64,000 nt of DNA from Archivesica marissinica. Its lineage: Eukaryota > Mollusca > Bivalvia > Venerida > Vesicomyidae. Below, one piece after another: positions 713-63,982 of this stretch. Numbering within the stretch: position 1 is the stretch's first letter; each line of letters opens with the position of its first letter. The position numbers were made by a program, and so were the translations under genes. Location: positions 101,064,722-101,128,721 of the forward strand of contig CM026390.1 in the NCBI GenBank assembly GCA_014843695.1, written 5' to 3'. A model generated the notes under the pieces. That model worked only from the letters and a program-made list of their open reading frames with translations. It was not told the DNA's origin and made no database searches.

Positions 713-849
713 GGTTGCATAATTTAGGTCATGCATGTATAATATGTCTATATTTTTATAACACCAGGATGATCAACCTTACTGCATACATTCCAGGGAC
801 ATGCACGATATGATTATAATTATATATATAATAAAAACATCAGTAATAT

Positions 850-1494
850 GTTACATTTATTCCAGGGCCATGCATGTACAATATGTTACATTTATTCCAG
901 GGCCATGCATCTACAATATGTTACATTTATTCCAGGACCATGCATGTACAATATGTTACATTTATTCCAGGGTCATGCATCTACAATATGTTACATTTAT
1001 TCCAGGACCATGCATGTACAATATGTTACATTTATTCCAGGACCATGCATGTACAATATGTTACATTTATTCCAGGACCATGCATCTACAATATGTTACA
1101 TTTATTCCAGGACCATGCATGTACAATATGTTACATTTATTCCAGGGTCATGCATCTACAATATGTTACATTTATTCCAGGACCATGCATCTACAATATG
1201 TTACATTTATTCCAGGGCCATGCATCTACAATATGTTACATTTATTCCAGGACCATGCATGTACAATATGTTACATTTATTCCAGGACCATGCATGTACA
1301 ATATGTTACATTTATTCCAGGGTCATGCATCTACAATATGTTACATTTATTCCAGGACCATGCATGTACAATATGTTACATTTATTCCAGGACCATGCAT
1401 GTACAATATGTTACATTTATTCCAGGACCATGCATCTACAATATGTTACATTTATTCCAGGACCATGCAGTACAATATGTTACATTTATTCCAG
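850..1494 (+). repeat. 35-bp minisatellite carrying the exon 1 splice acceptor, about 18-19 copies
   Basis: The unit contains ACATTTATTCCAG followed by GACCATGCATGTAC. Every copy therefore holds a pyrimidine-rich 3' splice site, TTTATTCCAG|G, identical to the acceptor used by exon 1 at 1493-1494. The last copy is 34 bp. All three forward frames are stop-free across the array. The acceptor at 1425 would add exactly 69 nt in frame to exon 1, so alternative acceptor use could lengthen the protein. The true acceptor is assigned to the last copy because the VWC sequence starts there. Confidence 0.93.
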
Positions 1495-1628
1495 GGTCAT
1501 GCACATATAATGGGGAGCAGTATCCTGATGGTTCGGACTGGGAAATTTTAGCATGTACAAAGTGTGTGTGTACTGACGGGCAACATTCCTGCTACCCAGT
1601 GGATTGTCCACCGGTCGTCTGTGCCGAG
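1495..1628 (+). CDS. FRAS1: FRAS1-like exon 1 of window: VWC module a, first part
   Basis: Acceptor TTTATTCCAG|GG, donor GAG|GTATGC; phase 1 in, phase 0 out. The product reads [15 protein letters not shown] then [21 protein letters not shown]. This is the typical VWC start: C-x-Y-x-G-x2-Y-x-D-G, then a CxxCxC cluster and spaced cysteines. Seven cysteines are in this exon and the closing CCPVC is in the next. The acceptor is the last copy of a 35-bp tandem array whose units all carry the same splice-site motif. The codon split at the start needs one base from an upstream exon outside the window, so this is not the first exon. Confidence 0.9.
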
Positions 1629-4600
1629 GTATGCAATGATGTAGACTACAGCAAAGTTTAATATAAACATTTTTATTGGGAATTTGATTCAAAGAAATAT
1701 GTTCCCTATAATACCCCAAGTGCTTAAAGAAGATGTCTTTACTGTTATCAAGTACTGGTTAACCGTTGGAGCCTGCCCAGGAAGGTGTTGTTAGGTAAAC
1801 TGCCCTCCGACGATATAGCCCAAAATGGTGCTGATGCAGGCGTAAAACCCGAAATATAAAATAAATTTACTGTTATCTGTAGCAGGTGTCATTTACTGAA
1901 ATTATTATCAAAATGTAATGCCCTGTCAGAGAGATGATCCATATAATATTCCTGTATAATCCTGGCTTAATGCTGGAGGAGGTAGAAACATACTTTAAAT
2001 ATCTGTCTAATGACCTGTGATTGTGTTACAGGAACATGGGAATGGAATCTGTGACAGGTGTATTTCATATTCAACTTGTGTCTTACAGAATGCAGTATTA
2101 GAAAGAGTATCCGATTCATGCTGTCCCGTCTGTCATAATCCTAATACAACATGCAGGCAAGGTGACATCGAATACAAGGTAAGGTTATAGTATAACATGC
2201 AGGCAAGGTGACATCGAATACAAGGTAAGGTTATAGTATAACATGCAGGCAAGGTGACATCGAATACAAGGTAAGGTTATAGTATAACATGCAGGCAAGG
2301 TGACATCGAATACAAGGTACAGTTATAGTATAACATGCAGGCAAGGTGACATCGAATACTAGGTAAGGTTATAGTATAACATGCAGGCAAGGTGACATCG
2401 AATACAAGGTAAGGTTATAGTATAACATGCAGGCAAGGTGACATCGAATACAAGGTAAGGTTATAGTATAACATGCAGGCAAGGTGACATCGAATACTAG
2501 GTAAGGTTATAGTATAACATGCAGGCAAGGTTACATCGAATACAAGGTAAGGTTATAGTATAACATGCAGACAAGGTGACATCGAATACAAGGTAAGGTT
2601 ATAGTATAACATGCAGGCAAGGTGACATCGAATACAAGGTAAGGTTATAGTATAACATGCAGGCAAGGTGACATCGAATACTAGGTACGGTTATAGTATA
2701 ACATGCAGGCAAGGTGACATTGAATACAAGGTAAGGTTATAGTATAACATGCAGGCAAGGTGACATTGAATACAAGGTACAGTTGTAGTATAACATGCAG
2801 GCAAGGTGACATCGAATACAAGGTAAGGTTATAGTATAACATGCAGGCAAGGTGACATCGAATACAAGGTAAGGTTATAGTATAACATGCAGGCAAGGTG
2901 GCATTGAATACAAGGTAAGGTTATAGTATAACATGCAGGCAAGGTGACATCGAATACAAGGTAAGGTTATAGTATAACATGCAGGCAAGGTGACATCGAA
3001 TACTAGGTACGGTTATAGTATAACATGCAGGCAAGGTGACATTGAATACAAGGTAAGGTTATAGTATAACATGCAGGCAAGGTGACATTGAATACAAGGT
3101 AAGGTTATAGTATAACATGCAGGCAAGGTGACATTGAATACAAGGTACAGTTATAGTATAACATGCAGGCAAGGTGACATCGAATACAAGGTAAGGTTAT
3201 AGTATAACATGCAGGCAAGGTGACATCGCATACAAGGTAAGGTTATAGTATAACATGCAGGCAAGGTGACATCGAATACAAGGTACAGTTATAGTATAAC
3301 ATGCAGGCAAGGTGACATCGAATACAAGGTACAGTTATAGTATAACATGCAGGCAAGGTGACATCGAATACAAGGTAAGGTTATAGTATAACATACAGGC
3401 AAGGTGACATCGAATACAAGGTAAGGTTATAGTATAGCATGCAGGCAAGGTGACATCGAATACAAGGTAAGGTTATAGTATAACATGCAGGCAAGGTGAC
3501 ATCGAATACAAGGTAAGGTTATAGTATAACATGCAGGCAAGGTGACATTGAATACAAGGTAAGGTTATAGTATAACATGCAGGCAAGGTGACATTGAATA
3601 CAAGGTAAGGTTATAGTATAACATGCAGGCAAGGTGACATTGAATACAAGGTAAGGTTATAGTATAACATGCAGGCAAGGTGACATTGAATACAAGGTAA
3701 GGTTATAGTATAACATGCAGGCAAGGTGACATCGAATACAAGGTACAGTTATAGTATAACATGCAGGCAAGGTGACATCGAATACAAGGTAAGGTTATAG
3801 TATAACATGCAGACAAGGTGACATCGAATACAAGGTTATAGTATAACATGCAGGCAAGGTGACATCGAATACAAGGTTATAGTATAACATGCAGGCAAGG
3901 TGACATCGAATACAAGGTTATAGTATAACATGCAGGCAAGGTGACATTGAATACAAGGTTATAGTATAACATGCAGGCAAGGTGACATCGAATACAAGGT
4001 TATAGTATAACATGCAGGCAAGGTGACATTGAATACAAGGTTATAGTATAACATGCAGGCAAGGTGACATCGAATACAAGGTACAGTTATAGTATAACAT
4101 GCAGGCAAGGTGACATTGAATACAAGGTAAGGTTATAGTATAACATGCAGGCAAGGTGACATCAAATACAAGGTAAGGTTATAGTATAACATGCAGGCAA
4201 GGTGACATCGAATACAAGGTAAGGTTATAGTATAACATGCAGGCAAGGTGACATTGAATACAAGGTAAGGTTATAGTATAACATGCAGGCAAGGTGACAT
4301 TGAATTCAAGGTAAGGTTATAGTATAACATGCAGGCAAGGTGACATCGAATACAAGGTAAGGTTATAGTATAACATGCAGACAAGGTGACATCGAATACA
4401 AGGTTATAGTATAACATGCAGGCAAGGTGACATTGAATACAAGGTTATAGTATAACATGCAGGCAAGGTGACATCGAATACAAGGTAAGGTTATAGTATA
4501 ACATGCAGGCAAGGTGACATCGAATACAAGGTTATAGTATAACATGCAGGCAAGGTGACATTGAATACAAGGTTATAGTATAACATGCAGGCAAGGTGAC

Positions 4601-7600
4601 ATCGAATACAAGGTTATAGTATAACATGCAGGCAAGGTGACATCGAATACAAGGTACAGTTATAGTATAACATGCAGGCAAGGTGACATCGAATACAAGG
4701 TAAGGTTATAGTACAACATGCAGGCAAGGTGACATCGAATACAAGGTACGATTATTAATACAACATGCAGGCAAGGTGACATTGAATACAAGGTAAGGTT
4801 ATTAATACAACATGCAGGCAAGGTGACATTGAATACAAGGTAAGGTTATTAATACAACATGCAGGCAAGGTGACATTGAATACAAGGTAAGGTTATAGTA
4901 TAACATGCAGGCAAGGTGACATCGAATACAAGGTTATAGTATAACATGCAGGCAAGGTGACATCGAATACAAGGTTATAGTATAACATGCAGGCAAGGTG
5001 ACATTGAATACAAGGTTATAGTATAACATGCAGGCAAGGTGACATTAAATACAAGGTAAGGTTATAGTATAACATGCAGGCAAGGTGACATCAAATACAA
5101 GGTTATAGTATAACATGCAGGCAAGGTGACATCGAATACAAGGTAAGGTTATAGTATTACATGCAGGCAAGGTGACATTGAATACAAGGTAAGGTTATAG
5201 TATAACATGCAGGCAAGGTGACATCGAATACAAGGTAAGGTTATAGTATACCATGCAGGCAAGGTGACATCGAATACAAGGTACGGTTATAGTATAACAT
5301 GCAGGCAAGGTGACATTGAATACAAGGTAAGGTTATAGTATAACATGCAGGCAAGGTGACATTGAATACAAGGTAAGGTTATAGTATAACATGCAGGCAA
5401 GGTGACATCGAATACAAGGTAAGGTTATAGTATAACATGCAGACAAGGTGACATCGAATACAAGGTTATAGTATAACATGCAGGCAAGGTGACATTGAAT
5501 ACAAGGTTATAGTATAACATGCAGGCAAGGTGACATCGAATACAAGGTAAGGTTATAGTATAACATGCAGGCAAGGTGACATCGAATACAAGGTTATAGT
5601 ATAACATGCAGGCAAGGTGACATTGAATACAAGGTTATAGTATAACATGCAGGCAAGGTGACATCGAATACAAGGTTATAGTATAACATGCAGGCAAGGT
5701 GACATCGAATACAAGGTACAGTTATAGTATAACATGCAGGCAAGGTGACATCGAATACAAGGTAAGGTTATAGTACAACATGCAGGCAAGGTGACATCAA
5801 ATACAAGGTACGATTATTAATACAACATGCAGGCAAGGTGCCATTGAATACAAGGTAAGGTTATTAATACAACATGCAGGCAAGGTGACATTGAATACAA
5901 GGTAAGGTTATTAATACAACATGCAGGCAAGGTGACATTGAATACAGGGTACGGTTATTAATACAACATGCAGGCAAGGTGACATTGAATACAAGGTAAG
6001 GTTATTAATACAACATGCAGGCAAGGTGACATTGAATACAAGGTAAGGTTATTAATACAACATGCAGGCAAGTTGACATTGAATAAAAGGTAAGTTTAGT
6101 GCAAATGCCTGGGTTCTGATTACCTGATTCCACATGTAGGTAATATAGAAGATGATGTTACATGTATTTTAATGTACTAGCAGGCAAGGCAACATAGAAA
6201 AAGTTTAGAAATAGTACTTTCTATATTGGAGACAGGATGTATTGATGGAGAACTGATACAGTGAACTATAGTCTTGTTTTGTGGAGAATAGTTGCATTGT
6301 GAGGTTCTGTGATGTGTACTTTTAGACTACGTGGAAGTCGTGATAGCGCAGTGGATGCACGTTCGCTTCAGGTGCGAAAGGTCCGGAGTTAGAGTCCTGC
6401 TGGAGCCGTTACGATTGTGCCATTAGGCACGGCATTTAAATTCCACGTTGCCTCTTCTCTCTCCCTCGTGGCGATGGATTCCATCAGGAATGAAGTCTCG
6501 AGAGTGATTAATATAAGTTGAAATAACTTATTTCGCAATCGAGCTAAAATAAATTTATATAAACTACTTCTAGATGAAACTTGTTCTACTTTCACTTTCC
6601 TCTGTTAGATATGGATGCACACCACTGTATTTTCTCCTTCTTCGCGCTATGGTAAATCGATAAACTGTCACAGTCAAATTCTCAGTTCCAAACAAGATCG
6701 ACATTTACTGCATGCAGTTCTGTAAACTCCAGGGCTGCTGCTTGCTGTTAGACACAAGTAAGTCATGGCATCTCCATCAAAGTTTTTCACAATTTTCAAA
6801 TGTAAACAAACACCGGTTAAAAATGGAGTGCATAGGGATCATAGCTGTCATGTAGGGCTGTTTACTCATCAATGCGCTGGAGCGAGTAGTACTGAAATAA
6901 ATGCACAAAAAGTCTTCTTCAAATGAGCACAAATGCCACAGATGCACCACAATCACAGTAAGAAATGCAAACAGTCTCTGGTTCTACAGTAAAACATCAT
7001 CAAATTATGGTCTGCTTGATTGTAAAAACTACTTTCTAGGATACAACGACCCAGAACCAATTCCCCAGTGGGGTCACACGATATATGGAGGGAGAATTAG
7101 ATTTTCTACATTTTGTGCCTCATTTATTTGCAGACTGGAGAGCAATGGAACCGAGACCCGTGTACACTGTGTGTATGTATCGGTGGTACTGTAGTGTGTA
7201 CAGTGAGGGAATGTATGGATCACATCTTCTGTAGCATGGTATGTTCTCTCCCTCCCTCAAACACCGTGTGTATGTATCGGTGGTACTGTAGTGTGTACAG
7301 TGAGGGAATGTATGGATCACATCTTCTGTAGCCTGGTATGTTCTCTCCCTCCCTCGAACACTGTGTGTATGTATAGGTGGTACTGTAGTGTGTACAGTGA
7401 GGGAATGTATGGATCACATCTTCTGTAGCCTGGTATGTTCTCTCACTGTGTCATCCCGTCTCACACCCTCTCCCTCCCTCAAACACTGTGTGTATGTATA
7501 GGTGGTACTGTAGTGTGTACAGTGAGGAAATGTATGGATCACATCTTCTGTAGCCTGGTATGTTCTCTCACTGTCTCATCCCGTCTCACACCCTCTCCCT

Positions 7601-10600
7601 CCCTCAAACACTGTGTGTATGTATCGGTGGTACTGTAGTGTGTACAGTGAGGGAATGTATGGATCACATCTTCTGTAGCCTGGTATGTTCTCTCATTGTC
7701 TCATCCCGTCTCACACCCTCTCCCTCCCTCGAACACTGTGTGTATGTATAGGTTGTACTGTAGTGTGTACAGTGAGGGAATGTATGGATCACATCTTCTG
7801 TAGCCTGGTATGTTCTCTCACTGTCTCATCCCGTCTCACACCCTCTCCCTCCCTCAAACACTGTGTGTATATATCGGTGGTACTGTAGTGTGTACAGTGA
7901 GGGAATGTATGGATCACATCTTCTGTAGCCTGGTATGTTCTCTCCCTGTCTCATCCCATCTCACACCCTCTCCCTCTCTCAAACACTGTCTCATCCCATC
8001 TCACACCCTCTCCCTCCCTCAAACACTGTCTCACACCCTCTCCCTCCCTCGAACACTGTGTGTATGTATAGGTGGTACTGTAGTGTGTACAGTGAGGGAA
8101 TGTATGGATCACATCTTCTGTAGCCTGGTATGTTCTCTCCCTGTCTCATCCCATCTCACACCCTCTCCCTCTCTCAAACACTGTCTCATCCCATCTCACA
8201 CCCTCTCCCTCCCTCAAACACTGTCTCACACCCTCTCCCTCCCTCGAACACTGTGTGTATGTATAGGTGGTACTGTAGTGTGTACAGTGAGGGAATGTAT
8301 GGATCACATCTTCTGTAGCCTGGTATGTTCTCTCACTGTCTCATCCCGTCTCACACCCTCTCCCTCCCTCAAACACTGTGTGTATATATCGGTGGTACTG
8401 TAGTGTGTACAATGAGGGAATGTATGGATCACATCTTCTGTAGCCTGGTATGTTCTCTCCCTGTCTCATCCCATCTCACACCCTCTCCCTCCCTCAAACA
8501 CTGTGTGTATGTATCGGTGGTACTGTAGTGTGTACAATGAGGGAATGTATGGATCACATCTTCTGTAGCCTGGTATGTTCTCTCCCTGTCTCATCCCATC
8601 TCACACCCTCTCCCTCCCTCGAACACTGTGTGTATGTATAGGTGGTACTGTAGTGTGTACAGTGAGGGAATGTATGGATCACATCTTCTGTAGCCTGGTA
8701 TGTTCTCTCCCTGTCTCATCCCATCTCACACCCTCTCCCTCTCTCAAACACTGTCTCATCCCATCTCACACCCTCTCCCTCCCTCAAACACTGTCTCACA
8801 CCCTCTCCCTCCCTCGAACACTGTGTGTATGTATAGGTGGTACTGTAGTGTGTACAGTGAGGGAATGTATGGATCACATCTTCTGTAGCCTGGTATGTTC
8901 TCTCACTGTCTCATCCCGTCTCACACCCTCTCCCTCCCTCAAACACTGTGTGTATATATCGGTGGTACTGTAGTGTGTACAATGAGGGAATGTATGGATC
9001 ACATCTTCTGTAGCCTGGTATGTTCTCTCCCTGTCTCATCCCATCTCACACCCTCTCCCTCCCTCAAACACTGTGTGTATGTATCGGTGGTACTGTAGTG
9101 TGTACAATGAGGGAATGTATGGATCACATCTTCTGTAGCCTGGTATGTTCTCTCCCTGTCTCATCCCATCTCACACCCTCTCCCTCCCTCAAACACTGTG
9201 TGTATGTATAGGTGGTACTGTAGTGTGTACAGTGAGGGAATGTATGGATCACATCTTCTGTAGCCTGGTATGTTCTCTCCCTGTCTCATCCCATCTCACA
9301 CCCTCTCCCTCTCTCAAACACTGTCTCATCCCATCTCACACCCTCTCCCTCCCTCAAACACTGTCTCACACCCTCTCCCTCCCTCGAACACTGTGTGTAT
9401 GTATAGGTGGTACTGTAGTGTGTACAGTGAGGGAATGTATGGATCACATCTTCTGTAGCCTGGTATGTTCTCTCACTGTCTCATCCCGTCTCACACCCTC
9501 TCCCTCCCTCAAACACTGTGTGTATATATCGGTGGTACTGTAGTGTGTACAATGAGGGAATGTATGGATCACATCTTCTGTAGCCTGGTATGTTCTCTCC
9601 CTGTCTCATCCCATCTCACACCCTCTCCCTCCCTCAAACACTGTGTGTATGTATCGGTGGTACTGTAGTGTGTACAATGAGGGAATGTATGGATCACATC
9701 TTCTGTAGCCTGGTATGTTCTCTCCCTGTCTCATCCCATCTCACACCCTCTCCCTCCCTCAAACACTGTCTCATCCCGTCTCACACCCTCTCCCTCTCTC
9801 AAACACTGTCTCATCCCATCTCACACCCTCTCCCTCCCTCAAACACTGTGTGTATGTATCGGTGGTACTGTAGTGTGTACAGTGAGGGAATGTATGGATC
9901 ACATCTTCTGTAGCCTGGTATGTTCTCTCACTGTCTCATCCCATCTCACACCCTCTCCCTCCCTCGAACACTGTGTGTATGTATCGGTGGTACTGTAGTG
10001 TGTACAGTGAGGGAATGTATGGATCACATCTTCTGTAGCCTGGTATGTTCTCTCACTGTCTCATCCCATCTCACACCCTCTCCCTCCCTCGAACACTGTG
10101 TGTATGTATAGGTGGTACTGTAGTGTGTACAGTGAGGGAATGTATGGATCACATCTTCTGTAGCCTGGTATGTTCTCTCACTGTCTCATCCCGTCTCACA
10201 CCCTCTCCCTCCCTCAAACACTGTGTGTATGTATAGGTGGTACTGTAGTGTGTACAGTGAGGGAATGTATGGATCACATCTTCTGTAGCCTGGTATGTTC
10301 TCTCCCTGTCTCATCCCATCTCACACCCTCTCCCTCCCTCAAACACTGTCTCATCCCATCTCACACCCTCTCCCTCCCTCAAACAGTCTCACACCCTCTC
10401 CCTCCCTCGAACACTGTGTGTATGTATAGGTGGTACTGTAGTGTGTACAGTGAGGGAATGTATGGATCACATCTTCTGTAGCCTGGTATGTTCTCTCACT
10501 GTCTCATCCCGTCTCACACCCTCTCCCTCCCTCAAACACTGTGTGTATATATCGGTGGTACTGTAGTGTGTACAATGAGGGAATGTATGGATCACATCTT

Positions 10601-13600
10601 CTGTAGCCTGGTATGTTCTCTCCCTGTCTCATCCCATCTCACACCCTCTCCCTCCCTCAAACACTGTGTGTATGTATCGGTGGTACTGTAGTGTGTACAA
10701 TGAGGGAATGTATGGATCACATCTTCTGTAGCCTGGTATGTTCTCTCCCTGTCTCATCCCATCTCACACCCTCTCCCTCCCTCGAACACTGTGTGTATGT
10801 ATAGGTGGTACTGTAGTGTGTACAGTGAGGGAATGTATGGATCACATCTTCTGTAGCCTGGTATGTTCTCTCCCTGTCTCATCCCATCTCACACCCTCTC
10901 CCTCTCTCAAACACTGTCTCATCCCATCTCACACCCTCTCCCTCCCTCAAACACTGTCTCACACCCTCTCCCTCCCTCGAACACTGTGTGTATGTATAGG
11001 TGGTACTGTAGTGTGTACAGTGAGGGAATGTATGGATCACATCTTCTGTAGCCTGGTATGTTCTCTCACTGTCTCATCCCGTCTCACACCCTCTCCCTCC
11101 CTCAAACACTGTGTGTATGTATCGGTGGTACTGTAGTGTGTACAATGAGGGAATGTATGGATCACATCTTCTGTAGCCTGGTATGTTCTCTCCCTGTCTC
11201 ATCCCATCTCACACCCTCTCCCTCCCTCAAACACTGTGTGTATGTATCGGTGGTACTGTAGTGTGTACAATGAGGGAATGTATGGATCACATCTTCTGTA
11301 GCCTGGTATGTTCTCTCCCTGTCTCATCCCATCTCACACCCTCTCCCTCTCTCAAACACTGTCTCATCCCATCTCACACCCTCTCCCTCCCTCAAACACT
11401 GTCTCACACCCTCTCCCTCCCTCGAACACTGTGTGTATGTATAGGTGGTACTGTAGTGTGTACAGTGAGGGAATGTATGGATCACATCTTCTGTAGCCTG
11501 GTATGTTCTCTCACTGTCTCATCCCGTCTCACACCCTCTCCCTCCCTCAAACACTGTGTGTATATATCGGTGGTACTGTAGTGTGTACAGTGAGGGAATG
11601 TATGGATCACATCTTCTGTAGCCTGGTATGTTCTCTCCCTGTCTCATCCCATCTCACACCCTCTCCCTCCCTCAAACACTGTCTCATCCCATCTCACACC
11701 CTCTCCCTCCCTCAACACTGTCTCATCCCGTCTCACACCCTCTCCCTCTCTCAAACACTGTCTCATCCCATCTCACACCCTCTCCCTCCCTCAAACACTG
11801 TGTGTATGTATCGGTGGTACTGTAGTGTGTACAGTGAGGGAATGTATGGATCACATCTTCTGTAGCCTGGTATGTTCTCTCACTGTCTCATCCCATCTCA
11901 CACCCTCTCCCTCCCTCGAACACTGTGTGTATGTATCGGTGGTACTGTAGTGTGTACAGTGAGGGAATGTATGGATCACATCTTCTGTAGCCTGGTATGT
12001 TCTCTCACTGTCTCATCCCGTCTCACACCCTCTCCCTCCCTCGAACACTGTGTGTATGTATAGGTGGTACTGTAGTGTGTACAGTGAGGGAATGTATGGA
12101 TCACATCTTCTGTAGCCTGGTATGTTCTCTCACTGTCTCATCCCATCTCACACCCTCTCCCTCCCTCGAACACTGTGTGTATGTATCGGTGGTACTGTAG
12201 TGTGTACAGTGAGGGAATGTATGGATCACATCTTCTGTAGCCTGGTATGTTCTCTCACTGTCTCATCCCGTCTCACACCCTCTCCCTCCCTCGAACACTG
12301 TGTGTATGTATAGGTGGTACTGTAGTGTGTACAGTGAGGGAATGTATGGATCACATCTTCTGTAGCCTGGTATGTTCTCTCACTGTCTCATCCCGTCTCA
12401 CACCCTCTCCCTCCCTCGAACACTGTGTGTATGTATAGGTGGTACTGTAGTGTGTACAGTGAGGGAATGTATGGATCACATCTTCTGTAGCCTGGTATGT
12501 TCTCTCACTGTCTCATCCCATCTCACATCCTCTTCCTCCCTCAAACACTGTCTCATCCCGTCTCACATCCTCAAACACTGTCTCATCCCGTCTCACACCC
12601 TCTCCCTCCCTCAAACACTGTCTCATCCCATCTCACATCCTCTCCCTCCCTCAAACACTGTCTCATCCCGTCTCACACCCTCTCCCTCCCTCAAACACTG
12701 TCTCATCCTGTCTCACACCCTCTCCCTCCCTCAAACACTGTCTCACACCCTCTCCCTCCCTCGAACACTGTGTGTATGTATAGGTGGTACTGTAGTGTGT
12801 ACAGTGAGGGAATGTATGGATCACATCTTCTGTAGCCTGGTATGTTCTCTCACTGTCTCATCCCGTCTCACACCCTCTCCCTCCCTCGAACACTGTGTGT
12901 ATGTATAGGTGGTACTGTAGTGTGTACAGTGAGGGAATGTATGGATCACATCTTCTGTAGCCTGGTATGTTCTCTCACTGTCTCATCCCGTCTCACACCC
13001 TCTCCCTCCCTCAAACACTGTGTGTATGTATAGGTGGTACTGTAGTGTGTACAGTGAGGGAATGTATGGATCACATCTTCTGTAGCCTGGTATGTTCTCT
13101 CACTGTCTCATCCCGTCTCACACCCTCTCCCTCCCTCAAACACTGTCTCACACCCTCTCCCACCCTCGAACACTGTGTGTATGTATAGGTGGTACTGTAG
13201 TGTGTACAGTGAGGGAATGTATGGATCACATCTTCTGTAGCCTGGTATGTTCTCTCACTGTCTCATCCCGTCTCACACCCTCTCCCTCTCTCAAACACTG
13301 TCTCATCCTGTCTCACACCCTCTCCCTCTCTCAAACACTGGCTCATCCCACATCACACCCTCTCCCTCCCTCAAACACTGTCTCATCCCGTCTCACACCC
13401 TCTCCCTATCTCAAACACAGTCTCATCCCATCTCACACCCTCTCCCTCCCTCAAACACTGTCTCATCCCATCTCACACCCTCTCCCTCCCTCAAACACTG
13501 TCTCATCATGCCTCACACCATCTCCCTCCCTCAAACACTGTGTGTATGTATCGGTGGTACTGTAGTGTGTACAGTGAGGGAATGTATGGATCACATCTTC

Positions 13601-16600
13601 TGTAGCCTGGTATGTTCTCTCACTGTCTCATCCCGTCTCACACCCTCTCCCTCCCTCAAACACTGTGTGTATGTATAGGTGGTACTGTAGTGTGTACAGT
13701 GAGGGAATGTATGGATCACATCTTCTGTAGCCTGGTATGTTCTCTCACTGTCTCATCCCGTCTCACACCCTCTCCCTCTCTCAAACACTGTCTCATCCCG
13801 TCTCACACCCTCTCCCTCCCTCAAACACTGTGTGTATGTATCGGTGGTACTGTAGTGTGTACAGTGAGGGAATGTATGGATCACATCTTCTGTAGCCTGG
13901 TATGTTCTCTCACTGTCTCATCCCGTCTCACACCCACTCCCTCCCTCAAACACTGTGTGTATGTATCGGTGGTACTGTAGTGTGTACAGTGAGGGAATGT
14001 ATGGATCACATCTTCTGTAGCCTGGTATGTTCTCTCACTGTCTCATCCCGTCTCACACCCTCTCCCTCCCTCAAACACTGTGTGTATATATCGGTGGTAC
14101 TGTAGTGTGTACAATGAGGGAATGTATGGATCACATCTTCTGTAGCATGGTATGTTCTCTCACTGTCTCATCCCGTCTCACACCCTCTTCCTCCCTCAAA
14201 CACTGTCTCATCCCATCTCACATCCTCTCCCTCCCTCAAACACTGTCTCATCGCTTCTCACTCCCCTCTCCCTCCCTCAAACACTGTCTCATCACATCTC
14301 ACTCCCCTCTCCCTCCCCTCTCCCTCCATTAAACACTGTCTCATCGCTTCTCACACCCTCCCCCAGTGTTATAGGTGTAGCATATTTACCCACTGATTTC
14401 CCTGTTTAAATGTTTAGAATGGTGTTATAGATATAGCATATTTATCAACTGATTTCCCTGTTTAAATGCTTAGAATGGGGTTTTAAATGTAGCATATTTA
14501 TCCACTGATTTCCCTGTTTAAATGTTTAGAATGGTGTTTTAAATGTAGCATATTTATCAACTGATTTCCCTGTTTAAATGCTTAGAATGGGGTTTTAAAT
14601 GTAGCATATTTATCAACTGATTTTCCTTTTTAAATGTTTAGAATGGTATTTTAAATGTAGCATATTTATCAACTGAATTTCCTTTTTAAATGTTTAGAAT
14701 GGTATTTTAAATGTAGCATATTTATCAACTGATTTTCCTTTTTAAATGCTTAGAATGCTGTTTTAAATGTAGCATATTTACCCACCGGAAGCATAATAAT
14801 GTCGTAAAATGTAATATTACTGAATTGAACCATTTATACTTACAATTGTGGTAAATGCAGCGATCTTTATTAAGTTTTAATGTTGAAATAACTGAAACAA
14901 ATTAAAGTACTTAACTGTAATTTGATGAAGCAGTATGTAATTTGACAAATTCTGACGAATTTATTATTTCTAATGATTGTGCAAATGTTACCAGGTTCAG
15001 AATAAGTAATTTTCGTTAAGATGTCTTAAATACCATTTTTAGGATTGACTTGCCGTGATCGTAAAATATACTTTGATGGTTTAATATATTGAACTGATAT
15101 GCAACAAGTATAGAGTATAATGATCACAAGGCGAGGAAAGTGCTCGTAAAAATGTAGTATTATATGGCAATAAAAAGTATATGTTTATCTGGTAAGTTTA
15201 TAAAATGCTGTATTTTAATATTTTGCGATACATAATGTTAACCACTCAATGTAGTCTAGGGATGATATGTCTCATTTTAAATGGCAGACTTTGAATGTTT
15301 TTTTATTGATTGACAGATGTTAACCCTTAAAATGCTGAATAAATTGGAAGAAATGTGCAAGCAACTTAGATCTAGATCAGATCAGGATCTATATTGTTTG
15401 CTATTGCTATTCTGCCTAGTCGGCTCCACTATTCGAATAGCAAACAGCATAGATCTAGATCAGATCAGGATAGCATAGATCTAGATCAGATCAGGATAGC
15501 ATAGATCTAGATCAGATCAGGATAGCATAGATCTAGATCAGATCAGGATCTATATTGCTTGCCTAGTCGGCTCCACTATCCAAATAGCAAACAGCATAGA
15601 TCTAGATCAGATCAGGATCTATACTGCTTGCTATACTGCCTAGTCGGCTCCACTATCCAAACAGCATAGAACCTGGTCAAAATGTGCCATCTGATCTGGC
15701 TCTGTTTGCAAAAATGAATATACTCGTATCCAGCACAATAAGGGTTAAACACATACATGGTATATCAAACATGAGTATGTTTTGATTTAAGGGCACCATG
15801 ATGTACGGCTAAACCCATTACACATGTTTTCTGTCCTACAAACATGATAATTTTGTTGCATTACAACACTGATAATTGATATCACTGATACTGCAAAGGA
15901 AACATTTCTTGTGTAGAGGTTAGCACGCTCACTTCTCACTAATGCAGCCTGGGTTAAAGTTTAAACTTTATTTATTTTACAACGATTGCGAAGCAAGTTC
16001 TAACAACTTATATTAATCACTCTCGTTGGCGCGGATGAAAGCGGTTATGTGGTCATTTGTATGGGAGGAAACCGGAGTACATGGAGAAAGCCTACCTGTC
16101 CGATCTGGCGACCACTGTACCATCCCACATACTTCCCGGTCCGAGGATCAAACCCGGGTTGCATTGGTGAGAAGCGAGCGCGCTAACCACTGCACTAATC
16201 GGACAACCTGGGTTGGATCCTCGGACTGGGAAATATGTGAGATAGTATGGTGGTCACTAAATCAGACAGGTTGATTTCCTCATACACAAATTACCGTATA
16301 TACGCTTTGATCCGCACCAACGAGGTTGATTAATATAAGTAGTTAATGCTTGTTTAGCAATCGTTGTAAAATAAATAAAGTTTAACTTTTTTTTAAAGGA
16401 AATAATTTTTGTATAGATATCTTCCAAAAGTTGTGTTTTAGCCAGTACATGTACCTGTATACCAAAGTTGTAAATTTGTTGTTTGTATGTATGCATACTG
16501 TTCTATACATGTTTATATCATGCTACAGGGCGATATGAAGGTCACAAGGCAAGGTGAATGTTGTCCGGAATGTGTGCCAAGAACTGGAATATGTAGCAAC

Positions 16601-34600: not shown

Positions 34601-35566
34601 ATCTAAATGATACTGCATGAAATGCATAATTTCTATTCATGTAGGGAAAGCTGTTCTTCAAGTCAGTGACACTCAGTTGACCAGTGATCTAGGTGATCTG
34701 TACTTCCAAGCAGTCCTGCCATCAGCCATTGCAATAGCAACCAGGTCGTTGTTAATAGCAACAGAGGATGATATAGCTTACATAGAACCTGGTGTTTTAA
34801 ATCTCACCTCGCTGGCACATCCAGAGAGTGTCACAGTCACAGTGCTTAAAGGTATGTGTAATTGTTTGAACATTTAAGAATAGAAGGAAAACATATTTCT
34901 GTTGTATGGCATGTAGATTATGTTGGCTGTCCGATTAGCGCAGTGGTTAGCGCACACGCTTCTCATCAATTCAACCCGGGTACGATCCTCGGACCGGGAA
35001 GTATGTGAGATGGTATGGTTGTTGCCAGATTTGACAGGTGTGTTTTCTCCAGGTACTCCGGTTTCCTCCCACATGAATGACCACATTTACGCTTTCATCT
35101 ATGCCAACGAGAGTTATTAATATAAGATGTTAAAACTTGCTTCGCAGTCATTGTAAAATAAATAAAGTTTAAAAAAAACATTATGTTAATGTTTTGATGA
35201 CAGTTTAATATCAGAAATTCAATATTGTACATCTCTATTTAAAACTACATGTATTCTATATAGCATCTTTATATATGTATATATTTGTGTATACATGTAT
35301 GTATATATTTAGCTTAGTTTATAAAAAAATATTTTAGCTCGATTGCGAAACAAGTTCTTACAACTTGTATTAATCATTCTCGAGACCTCAATCCTGATGG
35401 AATCCATCGCCACAAGGGAGAGAGAAGAGGCAATGTGGGATTTTAATGCTTTGCCAAAGGGCACAATAGTAACGGCTCCAACGGGACTCGAACTCCAGAC
35501 TTTTCGCACCTGAAGCGAACGCGCTACCACTGCCTTATCACAACTTCCATGATGTACATATTTATG

Positions 35567-35599
<33 letters not shown>

Positions 35600-47500: not shown

Positions 47501-50500
47501 AGGGAAGGTTTGTGCATACTTTTGTCTCTATTAGTACCATGGTGATGAAAGAGAACCAGTCAGCTCTTTATATGTTGCCATCAGCTACATGTAAGCTAAT
47601 TGTTAGGGAAGGTTTGTGTCATACTTGTATCTCCATTTGTAACACAGAGATAGAAAGTGGACCAGTCTGTTTCATACATAATCTCTATCTACTATTTCTA
47701 GACTGGTTGTATTTTGCATTTATATTATGTTTGTAATGATAACATAATGACGAAAGTGGACCACAGTCTGCACCTTACATGTTGCCGTCTGCACCTTACA
47801 TGTTGCCATCTGCACCTTACATGTTGCCGTCTGCACCTTACATGTTGCCGTCTGCACAGTGTCCATTAGGCATTTTGATTAGGGTTCTAATTTAAGTACC
47901 GTATACTATAAATATATGTTCCAGTGCATATATTACACCTCGTATATTTTACTATCTGCTTCAGGCCATGTGTTGTGGAAGTCGTGATAGCGTATTGGTA
48001 GCACGTTCACTTCAGGTGCGAAAGGCTCAAAGTTTGTGCACCACTGGAGCCATTACGATTGTGTCCTTAGGCAATGCATTTAAATTTCATTTCGCAATCA
48101 AGCTAAAATAAATTTGTATAAACTAGGCCATGTGTTAATGTGGTTGCAAACAGAGGATTGCACTATGAGTGGTTAATTCAGATACACAATAGACTATTTT
48201 CTTGTTATTTTCAGGAACATCGGAAAATGTGGCGAGACAGATTCTTGCCTTTGTCGATAACGATGATCAAGACTATAGTCTCGACATCATGCTCACCATA
48301 GAAACCACCCATGGAAAACTGTTGCTAAGCAATGAACGTGTCATGCTCCGTGACGTTTTTACACAGGCGGATATTAATAACAATCAACTGAGGTATTGCA
48401 GAATATTTTAGTTTAAACATTATTTATTTCAGTATTTGTACATGTGATCAAGAAATGAACATTTTACATATAATTTAACAGCAGTAGACTGAAAGGGATT
48501 AGAACGAAAGAAAACTTATATAGTTCTTCTCCCTATCAATTGATTGATATACAATAGGCAGGAGAATAATATATACAATAGGCAGGAGAATAATATATAC
48601 AATAGGCAGGAGAATAATATATACAATAGGCAGGAGAATAATATATACAATAGGCAGGAGAATAATATATACAATAGGCAGGAGAATAATATATACAATA
48701 GGCAGGATAATAATATATATAATAGGCAGGAGAATAATATATACAATAGGCAGGAGAATAATATATACAATAGGCAGGAGAATAATATATACAATAGGCA
48801 GGAGAATAATATATATACAATAGGCAGGAGAATAATATATACAATAGGCAGGGGAATAATATATATAATAGGCAGGGGAATAATATATATAATAGGCAGG
48901 GGAATAATATATACAATAGGCAGGAGAATAATATATACAATAGGCAGGAGAATAATATATACAATAGGCAGGAGAATACTATATACAATAGGCAGGAGAA
49001 TACTATATACAATAGGCAGGAGAATAATATATACAATAGGCAGGAGAATAATATATACAATAGGCAGGAGAATAATATATACAATAGGCAGGAGAATAAT
49101 ATATATACAATAGGCAGGAGAATAATATATACAATAGGCAGGGGAATAATATATATAATAGGCAGGGGAATAATATATACAATAGGCAGGGGAATAATAT
49201 ATATAATAGGCAGGGGAATAATATATATACAATAGGCAGGAGAATAATATATATAATAGGCAGGGGAATAATATATACAATAGGCAGGAGAATAATATAT
49301 AATAGGCAGGGGAATAATATATACAATAGGCAGGAGAATAATATATATAATAGGCAGGAGAATAATATATACAATAGGCAGGAGAATAATATATACAATA
49401 GGCAGGAGAATAATATATACAATAGGCAGGGGAATAATATATACAATAGGCAGGAGAATAATATATATAATAGGCAGGGGAATAATATATACAATAGGCA
49501 GGAGAATAATATATACAATAGGCGGGAGAATAATATATATAATAGGCAGGAGAATAATATATACAATAGGCAGGAGAATAATATATACAATAGGCGGGAG
49601 AATAATATATACAATAGGCAGGAGAATAATATATACAATAGGCAGGAGAATAATATATACAATAGGCAGGAGAATAATATATACAATAGGCGGGAGAATA
49701 ATATATACAATAGGCAGGAGAATAATATATACAATAGGCAGGAGAATAATATATACAATAGGCAGGAGAATAATATATACAATAGGCAGGAGAATAATAT
49801 ATACAATAGGCAGGAGAATAATATATACAATAGGCAGGAGAATAATATATACAATAGGCAGGAGAATAATATATACAATAGGCAGGATAATAATATATAT
49901 AATAGGCAGGAGAATAATATATACAATAGGCAGGAGAATAATATATACAATAGGCAGGAGAATAATATATACAATAGGCAGGAGAATAATATATATACAA
50001 TAGGCAGGAGAATAATATATACAATAGGCAGGGGAATAATATATATAATAGGCAGGGGAATAATATATATAATAGGCAGGGGAATAATATATACAATAGG
50101 CAGGAGAATAATATATACAATAGGCAGGAGAATAATATATACAATAGGCAGGAGAATACTATATACAATAGGCAGGAGAATACTATATACAATAGGCAGG
50201 AGAATAATATATACAATAGGCAGGAGAATAATATATACAATAGGCAGGAGAATAATATATACAATAGGCAGGAGAATATATATACAATAGGCAGGAGAAT
50301 AATATATACAATAGGCAGGGGAATAATATATATAATAGGCAGGGGAATAATATATACAATAGGCAGGAGAATAATATATATAATAGGCAGGGGAATAATA
50401 TATATACAATAGGCAGGAATAATATATATAATAGGCAGGGGAATATATATGGGGGTTTTTGGGGGGTTTATACATAGGCAGGAGAATATATATATAATAG

Positions 50501-56500: not shown

Positions 56501-59500
56501 GGCTATTGCATTGTGAGTACCTACAACTGATTGGATATTGCATTGTGAGTACCTACAGCTGATTGACTATTTCATTATGAGTATGTACAACTGACTTACC
56601 TTGTTTTCTCATGGGGAATAGAATCTCATAAAGTGTTTGCGTGCTTCAGTGCACTTGTCATAATTCGTTACATCTATCAGGTATTGTACGTGTTTGGTAA
56701 TTCCAGTTGAAGGATCTGAAATGCTGGAAGATAGACTGGTTGTCTCATTTCCTGTTCAAGATCTTCACAATCAGTACATCATCTACGTCCAGTCTGACCA
56801 CCTGAACAAGGAACCAGTCAGAGACAGCTTACTGTTCCATGTTGAAGATGGAAAGAATAGGTCACCTTCTCAAAGACTCAGTATTTTGATAGAGGTGAGT
56901 TTAAATGTTTCAGTTTGTCATTGTGGTTACAGAGTTGAAGTCATTAATTGTTGTTGTACATTGTTTGTTCAGCTTGTGTATTTGCAGCAGCATGGTTCCC
57001 ACAGACAGAAAAATGATGAGAAATCTGGGAAAATTGAAGATAAAAATCCAGGTCTGGAAAAATCAGGAAATTTGAAAATTTAGGAAATAATCAAGAAAAA
57101 ATCAGCAAATTCTATTTTGTAATGCGAAGGATCGTGAATACCATTGATTGTCATGATTTTGCCACGTAATCTATGATTACGCTAACTGGAATAGGGTCGA
57201 TCATGTGCCTGGTTTATTTATGTTGTTACCATGCATGCTGTCAGTTTCATAGGAAAAACCGTTTGTAAATTGACATTAATCTTCATAGCTCATATTGATG
57301 TCATTTCTATCATAAGGTACAGCATTAAATGCTTTCCTACCAGTTGTGTATTTATGTTTACAGCCTGTAAATGATGAAGCACCATCAGTCGTTACCGAGC
57401 AGGTGTTTGTACAGGAGGGTCAGCGAGTGCTGGTTACCAATTCCTCTGTCTATATCACCGACTTGGATACTCCCAACGACCGTCTCACCATCACGATACA
57501 CACTCCACCACAACACGGTAAGCACACTCTACCACAACTGTGGTAAGCACACTCTACCACAACATGGTAAGTACACTCTACCACAACGTGGTAAGCACAC
57601 TCTACCACAACATGGTAAGCACACTCCACCACAATGTGGTAAGCACACTCTACCACAACATGGTAAGCACACTCCACCACAATGTGGTAAGCACACTCTA
57701 CCACAACATGGTAAGCACACTCTACCACAACGTTTTAAGCACACTCTACCATAACACTGTAAGCACACTCCACCACAACACGGTAAGCACACTCTACCAC
57801 AACACGGTAAGCACACTCTACCACAACATGGTAAGCACACACTACCACAACATGGTAAGCACACTCTACCACAACATGGTAAGCACACTCTACCACAACA
57901 CGGTAAGCACACTCTACCACAACATGGTAAGCACACTCTACCACAACATGGTAAGCACACTCTACCACAACATGGTAAGCACACTCTACCACAACATGGT
58001 AAGCACACTCTACCACAACACAGTAAGCACACTCTACCACAACACAGTAAGCACACTCTACCACAACACGGTAAGCACACTCTACCACAACATGGTAAGC
58101 ACACTCTACCACAACACAGTAAGCACACTCTACCACAACACGGTAAGCACACTCTACCACAACATGGTAAGCACACTCTACCACAACATGGTAAGCACAC
58201 TCTACAACAACATGGTAAGCACACTCTACCACAATGTGGTAAGCACACACTACCACAACATGGTAAGCACACTCTACCACAATGTGGTAAGCACACTCCA
58301 CAACAACATGGTAAGCACACTCTACCACAACACGATAAGCACACTCCACCACAATGTGGTAAGCACACTCCACAACAACATGGTAAGCACACTCTACCAC
58401 AACACGGTAAGCACACTCTACCACAACGTGATAAGCACACTCTACCACAATGTGGTAAGCACACTCTACCACAACATGGTAAGCACACAAAGTCACTGTA
58501 TTTGTATTGCCACATTTATCGGATTTTTATCACCTTGTGTAATTTTCAATATATACTTAACAATGTTTAAACATTATAATTTTACGGTTATTTCTTAGAA
58601 TTTTATTATTGATGACACCTTCGCTTAATCAGTATACCCACGATCTCTTCTCGCCTACATTTCTCACTCTCTTTGCTAACCTTGCCCTGTCTTTGTGTTG
58701 ATATTTAATGTTTATGCGATTTAGCTATATAAAAGACATTATTTTATGTTCGTACATTGTATTGCTAACATATATTGATCTATAACTATATAAGGTTATT
58801 GTCTTAAAATTGTTAAAAATAAATTGTACAAGATATGTACAGCAGCTTCCTGCTGTTCTAGTTTAGTTTAAACAATATTTTATTCAAGAATAGTACATAA
58901 CATAGGAATAGTTGCAACAGTACAGTTAGGATTGGGAGAACAGTTACATTGTTTGCACACTGGATCTCTGTTGTTTATATTCAATGACTTTGTATCTTAA
59001 TTTATACCTGAATATCTTAGTTTTAATTTAAATATTTTAGGTATTTTGAGAAAGAAAAGTTCACAATTGCAGTCAGCCAGTGGTGTAACTACCTTACAGA
59101 AGGATGCTGTCTTTACATATAAGGTATGTAGTCCAACATAGTCAATGAATTATGTAACTAACGTTCATGTATTGTAGATTAAGTCATAATTAGTCAATAA
59201 CCAATCATATTGAGTGATTTGTGTAACCTGCATTGTACATGCAATTGTACGGTAAGATTACCTGTCTAAGATTAAAAGCTATACATGTATATATGATCAT
59301 GAAATTAATAGGGAAAGAATACAGACGGATCTGTAGTCCAGTGGTAACATGATGGACTGGTAATCCAGTCGCAGGTTCGAGCCCCGTCTGACCCTAATAA
59401 AATTAACAGTTTTTCAGATGGGACTTAAAACCGAGGTCTCGTGTCGGTGCTGTACACCATGCACGTAAAAGAACCAGAGGAGACTCTGGAATGGGTCTCT

Positions 59501-62500
59501 GTCTGTATCATTGCACTATCCTCCAAAAATCTACAATGACTAATCTCTTCAGGAGGCGTCACTCATATGGGCAACCGGTAGCGACGATAAATAAACGTAA
59601 AACACACAAGGGAAAGACTTAATTTCAGTTTTATTCCAAAACACATATAGGTTGTCCAACACGTAGCTAAAAATGCAAGTACTTCTGGTTAGAAATTAAA
59701 ATATTGCCAATGAAACTACCCAACTTCGTACTTTTAGTTTTTTTGAACGATGAACTTTATCTGTTCTGCTGGTGTTGAACAAATTTCATTAAATTTATCA
59801 CATAACTTTGCTTGTATTCAGTGTCATACATTCATATCATTATTTCTTATATGAACACACGTGTAATTACACCTCGAAGGATTCTGATTGGTTGAGAGAA
59901 TAATGCTTAGAATTTGTACATAACATTAATGGTAAGACAAGCTATGATTTAAAGGAAGTCTTGACGCAATTATAACGCTGTTCAAATCATAAATATAATG
60001 CTGCTTTGCATAGTGACGTCACAACAATTTAGTGACGTCACAACAATTTAGTGACGTCATGACAATTTAGTGACATCACAACAATTTAGTGATGTCACAA
60101 CAATTTAGTGATGTCACAACAATTTAGTGATGTCATGACAATTTAGTGACATCACAACAATTTAGTGATGTCATGACAATTTAGTGATGTCATGACAATT
60201 TAGTGACATCACAACAATTTAGTGATGTCATGACAATTTAGTGATGTCATGACAATTTAGTGACATCATGACAATTTAGTGACATCACAACAATTTAGTG
60301 ATGTCATGACAATTTAGTGACATCACAACAATTTAGTGACATCATGACAATTTAGTGACGTCATGACAATTTAGTGATGTCACAACAATTTAGTGACGTC
60401 ATGACAATTTAGTGATGTCATGACAATTTAGTGATGTCACAACAATTTAGTGATGTCATGACAATTTAGTGACATCACAACAATTTAGTGACGTCATGAC
60501 AATTTAGTGATGTCATGACAATTTAGTGATGTCATGACAATTTAGTGACGTCACAACAATTTAGTGATGTCACAACAATTTAGTGACGTCATGACAATTT
60601 AGTGACATCACAACAATTTAGTGACGTCATGACAATTTAGTGATGTCATGACAATTTAGTGATGTCATGACAATTTAGTGATGTCACAACAATTTAGTGA
60701 TGTCACAACAATTTAGTGACGTCATGACAATTTAGTGATGTCATGACAATTTAGTGACGTCATGACAATTTAGTGACATCACAACAATTTAGTGACGTCA
60801 TGACAATTTAGTGATGTCATGACAATTTAGTGATGTCATGACAATTTAGTGATGTCATGACAATTTAGTGACATCACAACAATTTAGTGACGTCATGACA
60901 ATTTAGTGACGTCATGACAATTTAGTGATGTCATGACAATTTAGTGATGTCATGACAATTTAGTGACGTCACAACAATTTAGTGATGTCATGACAATTTA
61001 GTGATGTCACAACAATTTAGTGACATCATGATAATTTAGTGATGTCACAACAATTTAGTGACGTCATGACAATTTAGTGACATCATGACAATTTGCGCTG
61101 ACACTTGGCACTAAAATGAAAGTTCCAACGTTATTTTTTAAAACGAGAGCGCCATGGTAATGTGATGAAAAGGATTGTACACTCGTTATGATTTCATACC
61201 ATGTTTTATAATACGAGTTTTATAAAATATGGTATGAAATCACTACTCATGTAAAATCCTATATATATATATACAAATCAAAGCCCATTTATTGATTTTA
61301 TATTAATAGAAGAAAATGTTGGTGTGATCCGGATATAGAATCTGTTTCCATAATTGTTGTTGGCACTGTGTAACGTATATCTAGTGTGACATTATATTTG
61401 TAGAATATACTAGATGAATTGATCCTGTACCTACATGATGGGGATGAGGTCACGGTCGACTCCTTCTCTCTCACAGTGTCTGATGGCAACTTCACAGATA
61501 CACACAGGATCCCCGTCATCATAGGCCTGATCAATGATGAAACCCCACGAGTGAAGATTAACAGGGGATTAACGATACATGCAGGTAAGAATATGTGATG
61601 ATTAACAGGGGATTAACTGTACATGCAGGTAAGAATATGTGATGATTAACAGGGGATTAACTGTACATGCAGGTAAGAATATGTGATGATTAACAAAGGA
61701 TTAATGGTACATGTAGGTATAATGTTGTGATGATTAACAAAGGATTAATGGTACATGTAGGTATAATGTTGTGATGATTAACAAAGGATTAATGGTACAT
61801 GTAGGTATAATGTTGTGATGATTAACAAAGGAGTAATGGTACATGTAGGTATAATGTTGTGATGATTAACAAAGGATTAATGGTACATGTAGGTATAATG
61901 TTGTGATGATTAACAAAGGAGTAATGGTACATGTAGGTATAATGTTGTGATGATTAACAAAGGATTAATGGTACATGTAGGTATAATGTTGTGATGATTA
62001 ACAAAGGATTAATGGTACATGTAGGTATAATGTTGTGATGATTAACAAAGGAGTAATGGTACATGTAGGTATAATGTTGTGATGATTAACAAAGGAGTAA
62101 TGGTACATGTAGGTATAATGTTGTGATGATTAACAAAGGAGTAATGGTACATGTAGGTATAATGTTGTGATGATTAACAAAGGAGTAATGGTACATGTAG
62201 GTATAATGTTGTGATGATTAACAAAGGAGTAATGGTACATGTAGGTATAATGGTGTGATGATTAACAAAGGAGTAATGGTACATGTAGGTATAATGGTGT
62301 GATGATTAACAAAGGAGTAATGGTACATGTAGGTATAATGTTGTGATGATTAACAAAGGAGTAATGGTACATGTAGGTATAATGTTGTGATGATTAACAA
62401 AGGATTAATGGTACATGTAGGTATAATGTTGTGTTGATTAACAAAGGATTAATGGTACATGTAGGTATAATGGTGTGATGATTAACAAAGGAGTAATGGT

Positions 62501-63982: not shown

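Follow-up and report, generated by a model that had tools for sequence, protein, structure and literature searches.

The window analysed here is a stretch of 64,000 nucleotides of Archivesica marissinica DNA (C5:101064722-101128721, in an assembly of 1.54 Gb), and the gene that hosts its tandem arrays is the bivalve ortholog of FRAS1, with VWC and Cadherin_3 domains (Pfam). The closest named protein is a Mercenaria mercenaria FRAS1-like protein (76% identity over the part searched); identity to other bivalves is 55% for Mya and 54% for Dreissena. Exons were called by tblastn of Mercenaria FRAS1 on the window extended by 40 kb at either end, together with GT/AG signals, and residues 2-2235 of that protein run nearly continuously over 38 kept exon matches. 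One further exon, 73382-73625 (Mercenaria residues 1964-2039), lies outside the kept matches and was read by eye. The resulting model has 39 exons, 31 of them inside the window, and 78 splice sites, 62 of them inside it. The Mercenaria protein used begins in exon 1495-1628, so we infer the acceptor 1494/1495 from phase, the VWC domain and an AG. A candidate exon at 34449-34545 was discarded, since the match to Mercenaria FRAS1 continues past it uninterrupted. The FRAS1 region contains 2,000 N, which were left unchanged. Viral contigs scanned with one FRAS1 exon yielded no relative.

Tandem arrays at FRAS1 and myosin splice sites

TRF detected 84 arrays, which make up 57% of the 144 kb FRAS1 region. 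We counted an array as straddling if it crossed a splice site by at least 4 nt on both sides, and as abutting if its edge lay within 30 nt of a splice site. Eight of the 62 splice sites in the window are straddled, in eight introns (six donors and two acceptors), as are two donors, 64599 and 73625, just past its downstream end, so that 10 of the 78 FRAS1 sites are straddled overall (Table 1). The original prediction had placed nine arrays across splice sites, in at least eight introns and with different units. TRF and reading of the sequence bore out the eight introns, and the units do differ from one FRAS1 intron to another; eight of the nine arrays straddle, the one at 16723 merely abuts its donor, and a tenth, at 19435, had been missed. 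The unit of the 16723-17333 array carries GAG/GTAAAG decoys (..TTGAG/GTAAAG.., with the slash at the splice position) and the exon ends in ..TTTAAG/GTACAG, the exon end not being copied beyond the splice core. Aligned with its own exon end, the 19435-20395 array scores 33; no other exon end gives more than 19. The unit of the compound array at 7164-14358 contains 75 exon nt, and a 21-nt array at 47766-47857, after the 47436-47667 duplication, contains exon-like sequence by eye.

Table 1. FRAS1 exons and tandem arrays at or near their splice sites, in window coordinates
Feature	Position	Strand	Basis
Minisatellite, 35-nt unit (9 exon nt), straddles inferred acceptor 1494/1495	845..1503	+	TRF, sequence reading
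FRAS1 exon (VWC)	1495..1628	+	Pfam VWC, tblastn; first exon of Mercenaria protein used
FRAS1 exon (VWC part), donor 2178	2089..2178	+	tblastn, splice signals
Minisatellite, 46-nt unit (31 exon + 15 intron nt), ~88 copies, straddles donor 2178	2148..6098	+	TRF, reading
FRAS1 exon (VWC-like), donor 7238	7134..7238	+	tblastn, splice signals
Compound minisatellite, basic units of 97/125 nt arranged in higher-order blocks, straddles donor 7238	7164..14358	+	TRF, reading
FRAS1 exon, donor 16720	16529..16720	+	tblastn, splice signals
Minisatellite, ~40 nt, abuts donor 16720, edge 2 nt into intron	16723..17333	+	TRF
FRAS1 exon, donor 19416	19330..19416	+	tblastn, splice signals
Minisatellite, 40-nt unit, diverged copy of end of exon 19330-19416	19435..20395	+	alignment
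Minisatellite, abuts acceptor of exon 21240-21387 (12 nt)	20837..21227	+	TRF
Minisatellite, abuts acceptor of exon 25348-25638 (27 nt)	24994..25320	+	TRF
Short two-copy repeat, 18 nt past donor 29816	29835..29876	+	TRF
Minisatellite, 30-nt unit, 12 nt past donor 30380	30393..32702	+	TRF
FRAS1 exon (Cys-rich), donor 32911	32771..32911	+	tblastn, splice signals
Minisatellite, 88-nt unit, 3.3 identical copies, straddles donor 32911	32878..33164	+	TRF, reading
Minisatellite, abuts acceptor of exon 38520-38716 (27 nt)	37456..38492	+	TRF
Minisatellite, 56-nt unit (17 exon nt), straddles acceptor 41566/41567 of exon 41567-41695	40956..41583	+	TRF, reading
FRAS1 exon	41567..41695	+	tblastn, splice signals
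FRAS1 exon (Cadherin_3/CSPG), donor 47507	47301..47507	+	Pfam, tblastn, splice signals
Tandem duplication, 104 nt, 2.2 copies plus remnants, straddles donor 47507	47436..47667 (whole 47436..47857)	+	TRF, reading
FRAS1 exon, donor 57517	57364..57517	+	tblastn, splice signals
Minisatellite, 24-nt unit, ~41 copies, straddles donor 57517	57499..58488	+	TRF, reading
FRAS1 exon, donor 61584	61404..61584	+	tblastn, splice signals
Minisatellite, 44-nt unit, 26 copies, straddles donor 61584	61551..62695	+	TRF, reading

Other repeats share the FRAS1 introns. The sequence ..ATGTATGTCATATTGGTAATGGCGTCAAGAGGTGCTTCTATGAG.. recurs in several introns in both orientations, like a dispersed mobile element carrying its own minisatellite; copies lie at window coordinates 54200-54320, ~18650-18760, -22003 to -21893 and 98414-98524, and at 1079-1334 of locus L041, with internal tandem units at some places (17757-18692, 18747-19258 and 53875-54240). 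At 24501-24900, six perfect 56-nt units are followed within ~60 nt by a partial inverted copy (by eye), and this array could fold back on itself. Several SINE-like sequences, which we take to be tRNA-derived, occur in both orientations (~6330-6560, 15950-16240, 28240-28310, 34160-34400, 34910-35000 and 47980-48120). Farther downstream in the FRAS1 region, at ~100360-103030 (L009), open stretches resembling a LINE-type endonuclease/reverse transcriptase were seen by eye.

The comparison genes were all myosins, whose head exons were located genome-wide (at least 74 matches, from 65 of 265 candidates). Many of these matches are near-identical copies and some exons are near-duplicates, such as L034 and L035, both of which are free of border arrays. 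The sample comprised four regions and 39 short loci, giving 84 exons and 168 splice sites with borders set by a profile (70 homologs) and splice scores rather than by transcripts; those bearing arrays were read by eye. TRF arrays cover 11-34% of the four regions. Twelve myosin junctions are straddled, in genes on several chromosomes: seven donors (L028, L037, L054, L058, myoC14 and two in myoC4) and five acceptors (L055, L056, myoC5a and two in L038). On reading, the acceptor of L044 proved to be a mis-assigned border, and its removal lowered the script count from 23 to 22. The 22 straddled junctions are spread over seven large contigs (C2, C3, C4, C5, C7, C9 and C14), and junction arrays are not confined to FRAS1.

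At C5:100.28-100.32 Mb (L018-L021) a muscle-type myosin has one exon in triplicate (profile positions 174-202) and another in duplicate (145-171); these repeated exons have no border arrays and look like mutually exclusive exons. Identical match scores recur at C5:39.95-40.19 Mb, where several near-identical myosin genes are clustered. At C18:57969556-57970428 (L061), within a chromosome-sized contig, there is a COX1 copy with an open frame of 291 residues when four TGA are read as Trp (table 5), either a nuclear mitochondrial insert or a misjoin.

Array density at exon borders

The comparison of array edges with randomised positions, which had been proposed genome-wide, was made on 246 splice sites, 78 from FRAS1 and 168 from myosins, and arrays were enriched at them. 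In the null model (2,000 permutations) units were placed uniformly, with whole-exon positions forbidden. Pooled, 22 of the 246 sites were straddled against 13.1 expected (P=0.009), 28 were abutted within 30 nt against 9.6, and 50 were straddled or abutted against 22.7, neither of the latter two counts being reached in any of the 2,000 permutations. For FRAS1 alone the corresponding figures were 10 of 78 against 4.8 (P=0.01), 11 against 3.9, and 21 against 8.7 (0/2,000). The myosins alone gave 17 abutted sites against 5.6 and 29 straddled or abutted against 13.8; their straddling excess was not significant (12 vs 8.25, P=0.10), and a 19-locus myosin subset showed none (4 vs 4.2). None of the 2,000 permutations attained the combined count of the first myosin set or of the pooled myosins; in the 19-locus set that count had P=0.039. 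Under five TRF settings, on the sense strand, straddling counts were 19-23 against 5.8-10.4 and abutting counts 24-28 against 4.9-10.5, so that the figure of 22, at its own setting, should be accurate to about one; no array lay wholly inside an exon under these settings, with 13-28 expected.

Arrays therefore straddle borders or lie within 30 nt of them about twice as often as under uniform placement, an excess that is real but modest; it is strong for abutting arrays and modest for straddling ones. That exon borders carry more arrays than random intronic positions is thus borne out in FRAS1 and, independently, in the myosins. The suggestion that they are preferred seeds gains modest support for straddling arrays, whose counts are modestly raised overall and within the null in the myosins.

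Could chance alone have produced this pattern? Where 11-57% of a gene region lies in arrays, some units must overlap splice sites even if borders are not special. Of the 22 straddled sites the uniform null already accounts for 13.1, and of the 50 sites in the combined count for 22.7; it also accommodates straddling in the myosins. About half or more of the striking cases consequently need no special cause. The combined counts, however, speak against pure chance, as does the density profile, for which each array was collapsed to one unit: array edges reached 4.26/kb at 0-30 nt into the intron (straddling being 2.25 per kb-equivalent), and density was 1.0, 1.1, 1.15 and 0.88/kb at 30-60, 60-120, 120-240 and 240-480 nt, a flat background. 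Among unstraddled real sites, 14 of 108 donors and 13 of 115 acceptors were abutted, five to six times the frequency at random unique intronic points (575/25,884), and we consider chance by itself quite improbable. The same profile gives no support to the idea that introns lengthened by transposons account for the excess, and an origin at a composition step likewise found no support (GC step of 0.087 across intronic arrays vs 0.088 at random points).

Decoy sites in unique intronic sequence were seldom abutted (2/56 decoy donors and 9/264 decoy acceptors; real vs decoy sites, Fisher P=0.0001). A tentative reading, which we hold to be possible though not the leading one, is that borders are a general hotspot of minisatellite birth in bivalves, where real splice sites in transcribed DNA would raise tandem duplication about two- to six-fold within ~30 nt, affecting about a fifth of sites. 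With equal reserve, the little effect at decoys would tie such a hotspot to real splice sites, the GT/AG motif aside.

Alternatively, arrays may drift toward exons as the intervening unique DNA is deleted or absorbed, with exons halting the process. Such erosion would suit the finding that 25 of 27 abutting arrays are not detectably derived from an exon, as if they had begun in the intron; with only two exon-derived cases, the abutting class may have another cause than the straddling one. Gaps between neighbouring arrays are also mildly short (1.68/kb below 30 nt, 1.86/kb at 30-60 nt and 0.6-1.2/kb beyond), yet they show no pile-up like that at exons, and the edges of abutting arrays are spread from -3 to 29 nt from the splice site, with no fixed stopping distance. 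Moreover, 15 of the 22 straddling arrays have copies beside the junction that are at least 88% identical to it, from which it follows that those arrays started at the junction. Although erosion may contribute to the abutting class, it is an unlikely explanation of the whole.

Splice-site copies and their likely use

In seven donor arrays GT is retained in 280 of 291 scored non-functional copies, and in the five of these inside the window in 176 of 184 (including 69/74 at 2148-6098, 46/46 at 7164-14358 and 35/38 at 57499-58488), which makes the earlier estimate of about 200 extra donors a fair one. The 30 or more extra acceptors estimated at the same time come to slightly fewer, with 18 and 10 counted in the two FRAS1 acceptor arrays.

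Are these extra sites of use to the gene? It had been suggested, as one possibility, that such arrays serve as U1 snRNP landing pads that suppress premature polyadenylation. More broadly, repeated donors or acceptors might be selected as U1/U2 landing pads, for exon definition or against premature polyadenylation. The retained GT would agree with this, as would the greater length of junction arrays (median 763 nt vs 312 nt for other arrays, P=0.007). However, divergence at donor positions is similar to that at neighbouring positions within an array, and the conservation of decoy donors is neither clearly better nor clearly worse than that of their neighbours. In addition, acceptors are straddled as well as donors (8 and 15, respectively, by script over the 246 sites, including the mis-assigned acceptor of L044). 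The most enriched class, abutting arrays, is not clearly enriched in donor-like motifs: no unit of 27 reached a sense score of 5, and at score 3 or above there were 3 of 14 at donors, weak motifs that count in favour of function, and 0 of 13 at acceptors, with shuffles giving 1.4 each. Other intronic units gave 0 of 106 at score 5 and 4 of 106 at score 3 (shuffles 6.0). This motif test is a weak one, since only 4 of 15 donor-straddling units reach a sense score of 5 (7 reach 3). We regard a selected function as very improbable, and the landing-pad proposal is not supported. A motif-driven origin of the arrays likewise found no support, given the lack of enrichment of donor-like motifs in other intronic units and the few arrays that abut decoy sites.

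The other part of that proposal, that such arrays are simply tolerated, is supported by the protein and by the lack of arrays wholly within exons. In tblastn, Mercenaria FRAS1 crosses eight of the ten straddled FRAS1 junctions without an extra repeat unit; the remaining two, 1494 (at the protein start) and 73625, rest on reading. Since no repeat unit enters the protein at these eight junctions, the outermost site, carried by the copy that adjoins the exon body, is probably the splice site used. Copies nearer the exon tended to be closer to the functional unit in 14 of the 18 junction arrays scored (negative rho; only junction arrays were scored), with a strong gradient at 2178, at 61584, in L028 and in one L038 array; at 61551-62695 the copies nearest the exon are the most like the functional junction (rho -0.78). 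Copy identity is equal in junction arrays and other arrays, and together with the greater length of the former this would fit tolerated growth or preferential retention.

Mirages in a mollusc and the origin of the border excess

The arrays had been thought to represent no described class. Tandem repeats spanning exon-intron boundaries have, however, already been named in amphioxus, where these "mirages" are described in the available text of two reports from Adh3, the globins BflGb6/BflGb9, TnC and PGBD5 (PMC3087553, PMC3902484). RT-PCR there suggested normal splicing (PMC3087553), and the Adh3 mirage is reported to show somatic instability (PMC3087553, PMC3902484). Other traits ascribed to mirages are polymorphic copy number and a concerted evolution of the cluster that passes over its boundary copies. 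Clam units likewise span the exon-intron boundary, at 22 of 246 sites, and do so at both 5' and 3' splice sites (by the script counts given above). Compared with the amphioxus cases, as far as the text of those reports extends, the clam is a mollusc, has up to ~90 copies in an array and ~9% of its sampled splice sites affected, and adds an abutting class and a measured excess over the intronic background. Among the papers listed by our literature searches, none was seen to report mirages in molluscs or a measured excess of arrays at splice sites. The clam junction arrays belong to the known class of mirages; what is new is their scale in a mollusc and the border-specific excess.

Three other systems bear comparison. 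Human examples such as UBC and VCX3A, with tandem-repeat introns bearing dual-specific AG/GT splice sites (Duan et al., 2024, PMC10809524), share with the clam arrays splice sites inside tandem repeats and a tolerance of expansion, which splicing removes; the UBC-type intron is embedded in the repeat and has a length that is a multiple of the unit, whereas a clam intron has one end in the array and the other in unique sequence. Among FRAS1 introns we found none with both ends straddled by one array; in intron 81845-83035 the array at 81864-82985 has edges 18 and 49 nt from the intron ends. Introns can also be gained when AGGT undergoes tandem genomic duplication, as in potato RdRp (PMC4974935); this too involves a tandem duplication that includes the splice-site core, but it makes a new intron from exon, while the clam arrays sit at borders with Mercenaria-like protein junctions. 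In C. elegans the intronic minisatellite CeRep25B, found close to alternative exons (PMC4039745), is similarly over-represented near splicing decisions; in contrast to the clam arrays with their own local units, it is one dispersed family with one sequence.

One amphioxus mirage is reported to have been aberrantly assembled in the draft genome (PMC3087553), and the clam arrays might likewise be collapsed or duplicated reads. We hold this to be extremely improbable because 22 junctions on seven large contigs are involved, and the arrays that cross them differ in unit and have variant copies scattered among the others.

The explanation that we favour, and consider probable, is that these are bivalve mirages in which neutral minisatellite growth is tolerated at junctions, with a border-specific bias of birth or retention in addition. 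We read the border excess as such a birth or retention bias rather than as selection for extra splice sites. The process would start with a tandem duplication that happened to cover an exon-intron border, against a genome background of very frequent minisatellite births in introns. A duplication within an exon would damage the protein and be lost. One across a splice site would survive, since it leaves an intact copy joined to the exon body and the nearest splice site is used, the remaining copies becoming intron. The site used would be that nearest the exon body, the first donor or the last acceptor, as exon definition would favour. Slippage or unequal exchange could then expand and homogenise the array. 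In this scheme we infer which site serves in RNA, that exon definition accounts for the choice, and what causes the excess.

Mirages have so far been reported, in the text of those papers that was available, from a handful of lancelet genes. With ~9% of sampled splice sites inside an array and ~20% inside or touching one, the clam offers many natural experiments, which bear on how the spliceosome chooses one donor among dozens of near-identical copies, on a possible link of tandem duplication to splicing or transcription, and on whether arrays feed intron sliding or gain. They also carry a warning for gene prediction, in that junction copies can be mistaken for exons, and FRAS1 of Solemya velum seems to be an example. 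When 17 FRAS1-type proteins were searched for tandem repeats, this predicted protein (P0135) was the only one with a duplication, of 27 residues (within residues 1876-1936), which opens the exon homologous to 69927-70192 and replaces the preceding exon. It looks like a duplicated acceptor misread as protein, and hints at mirages elsewhere in bivalves.
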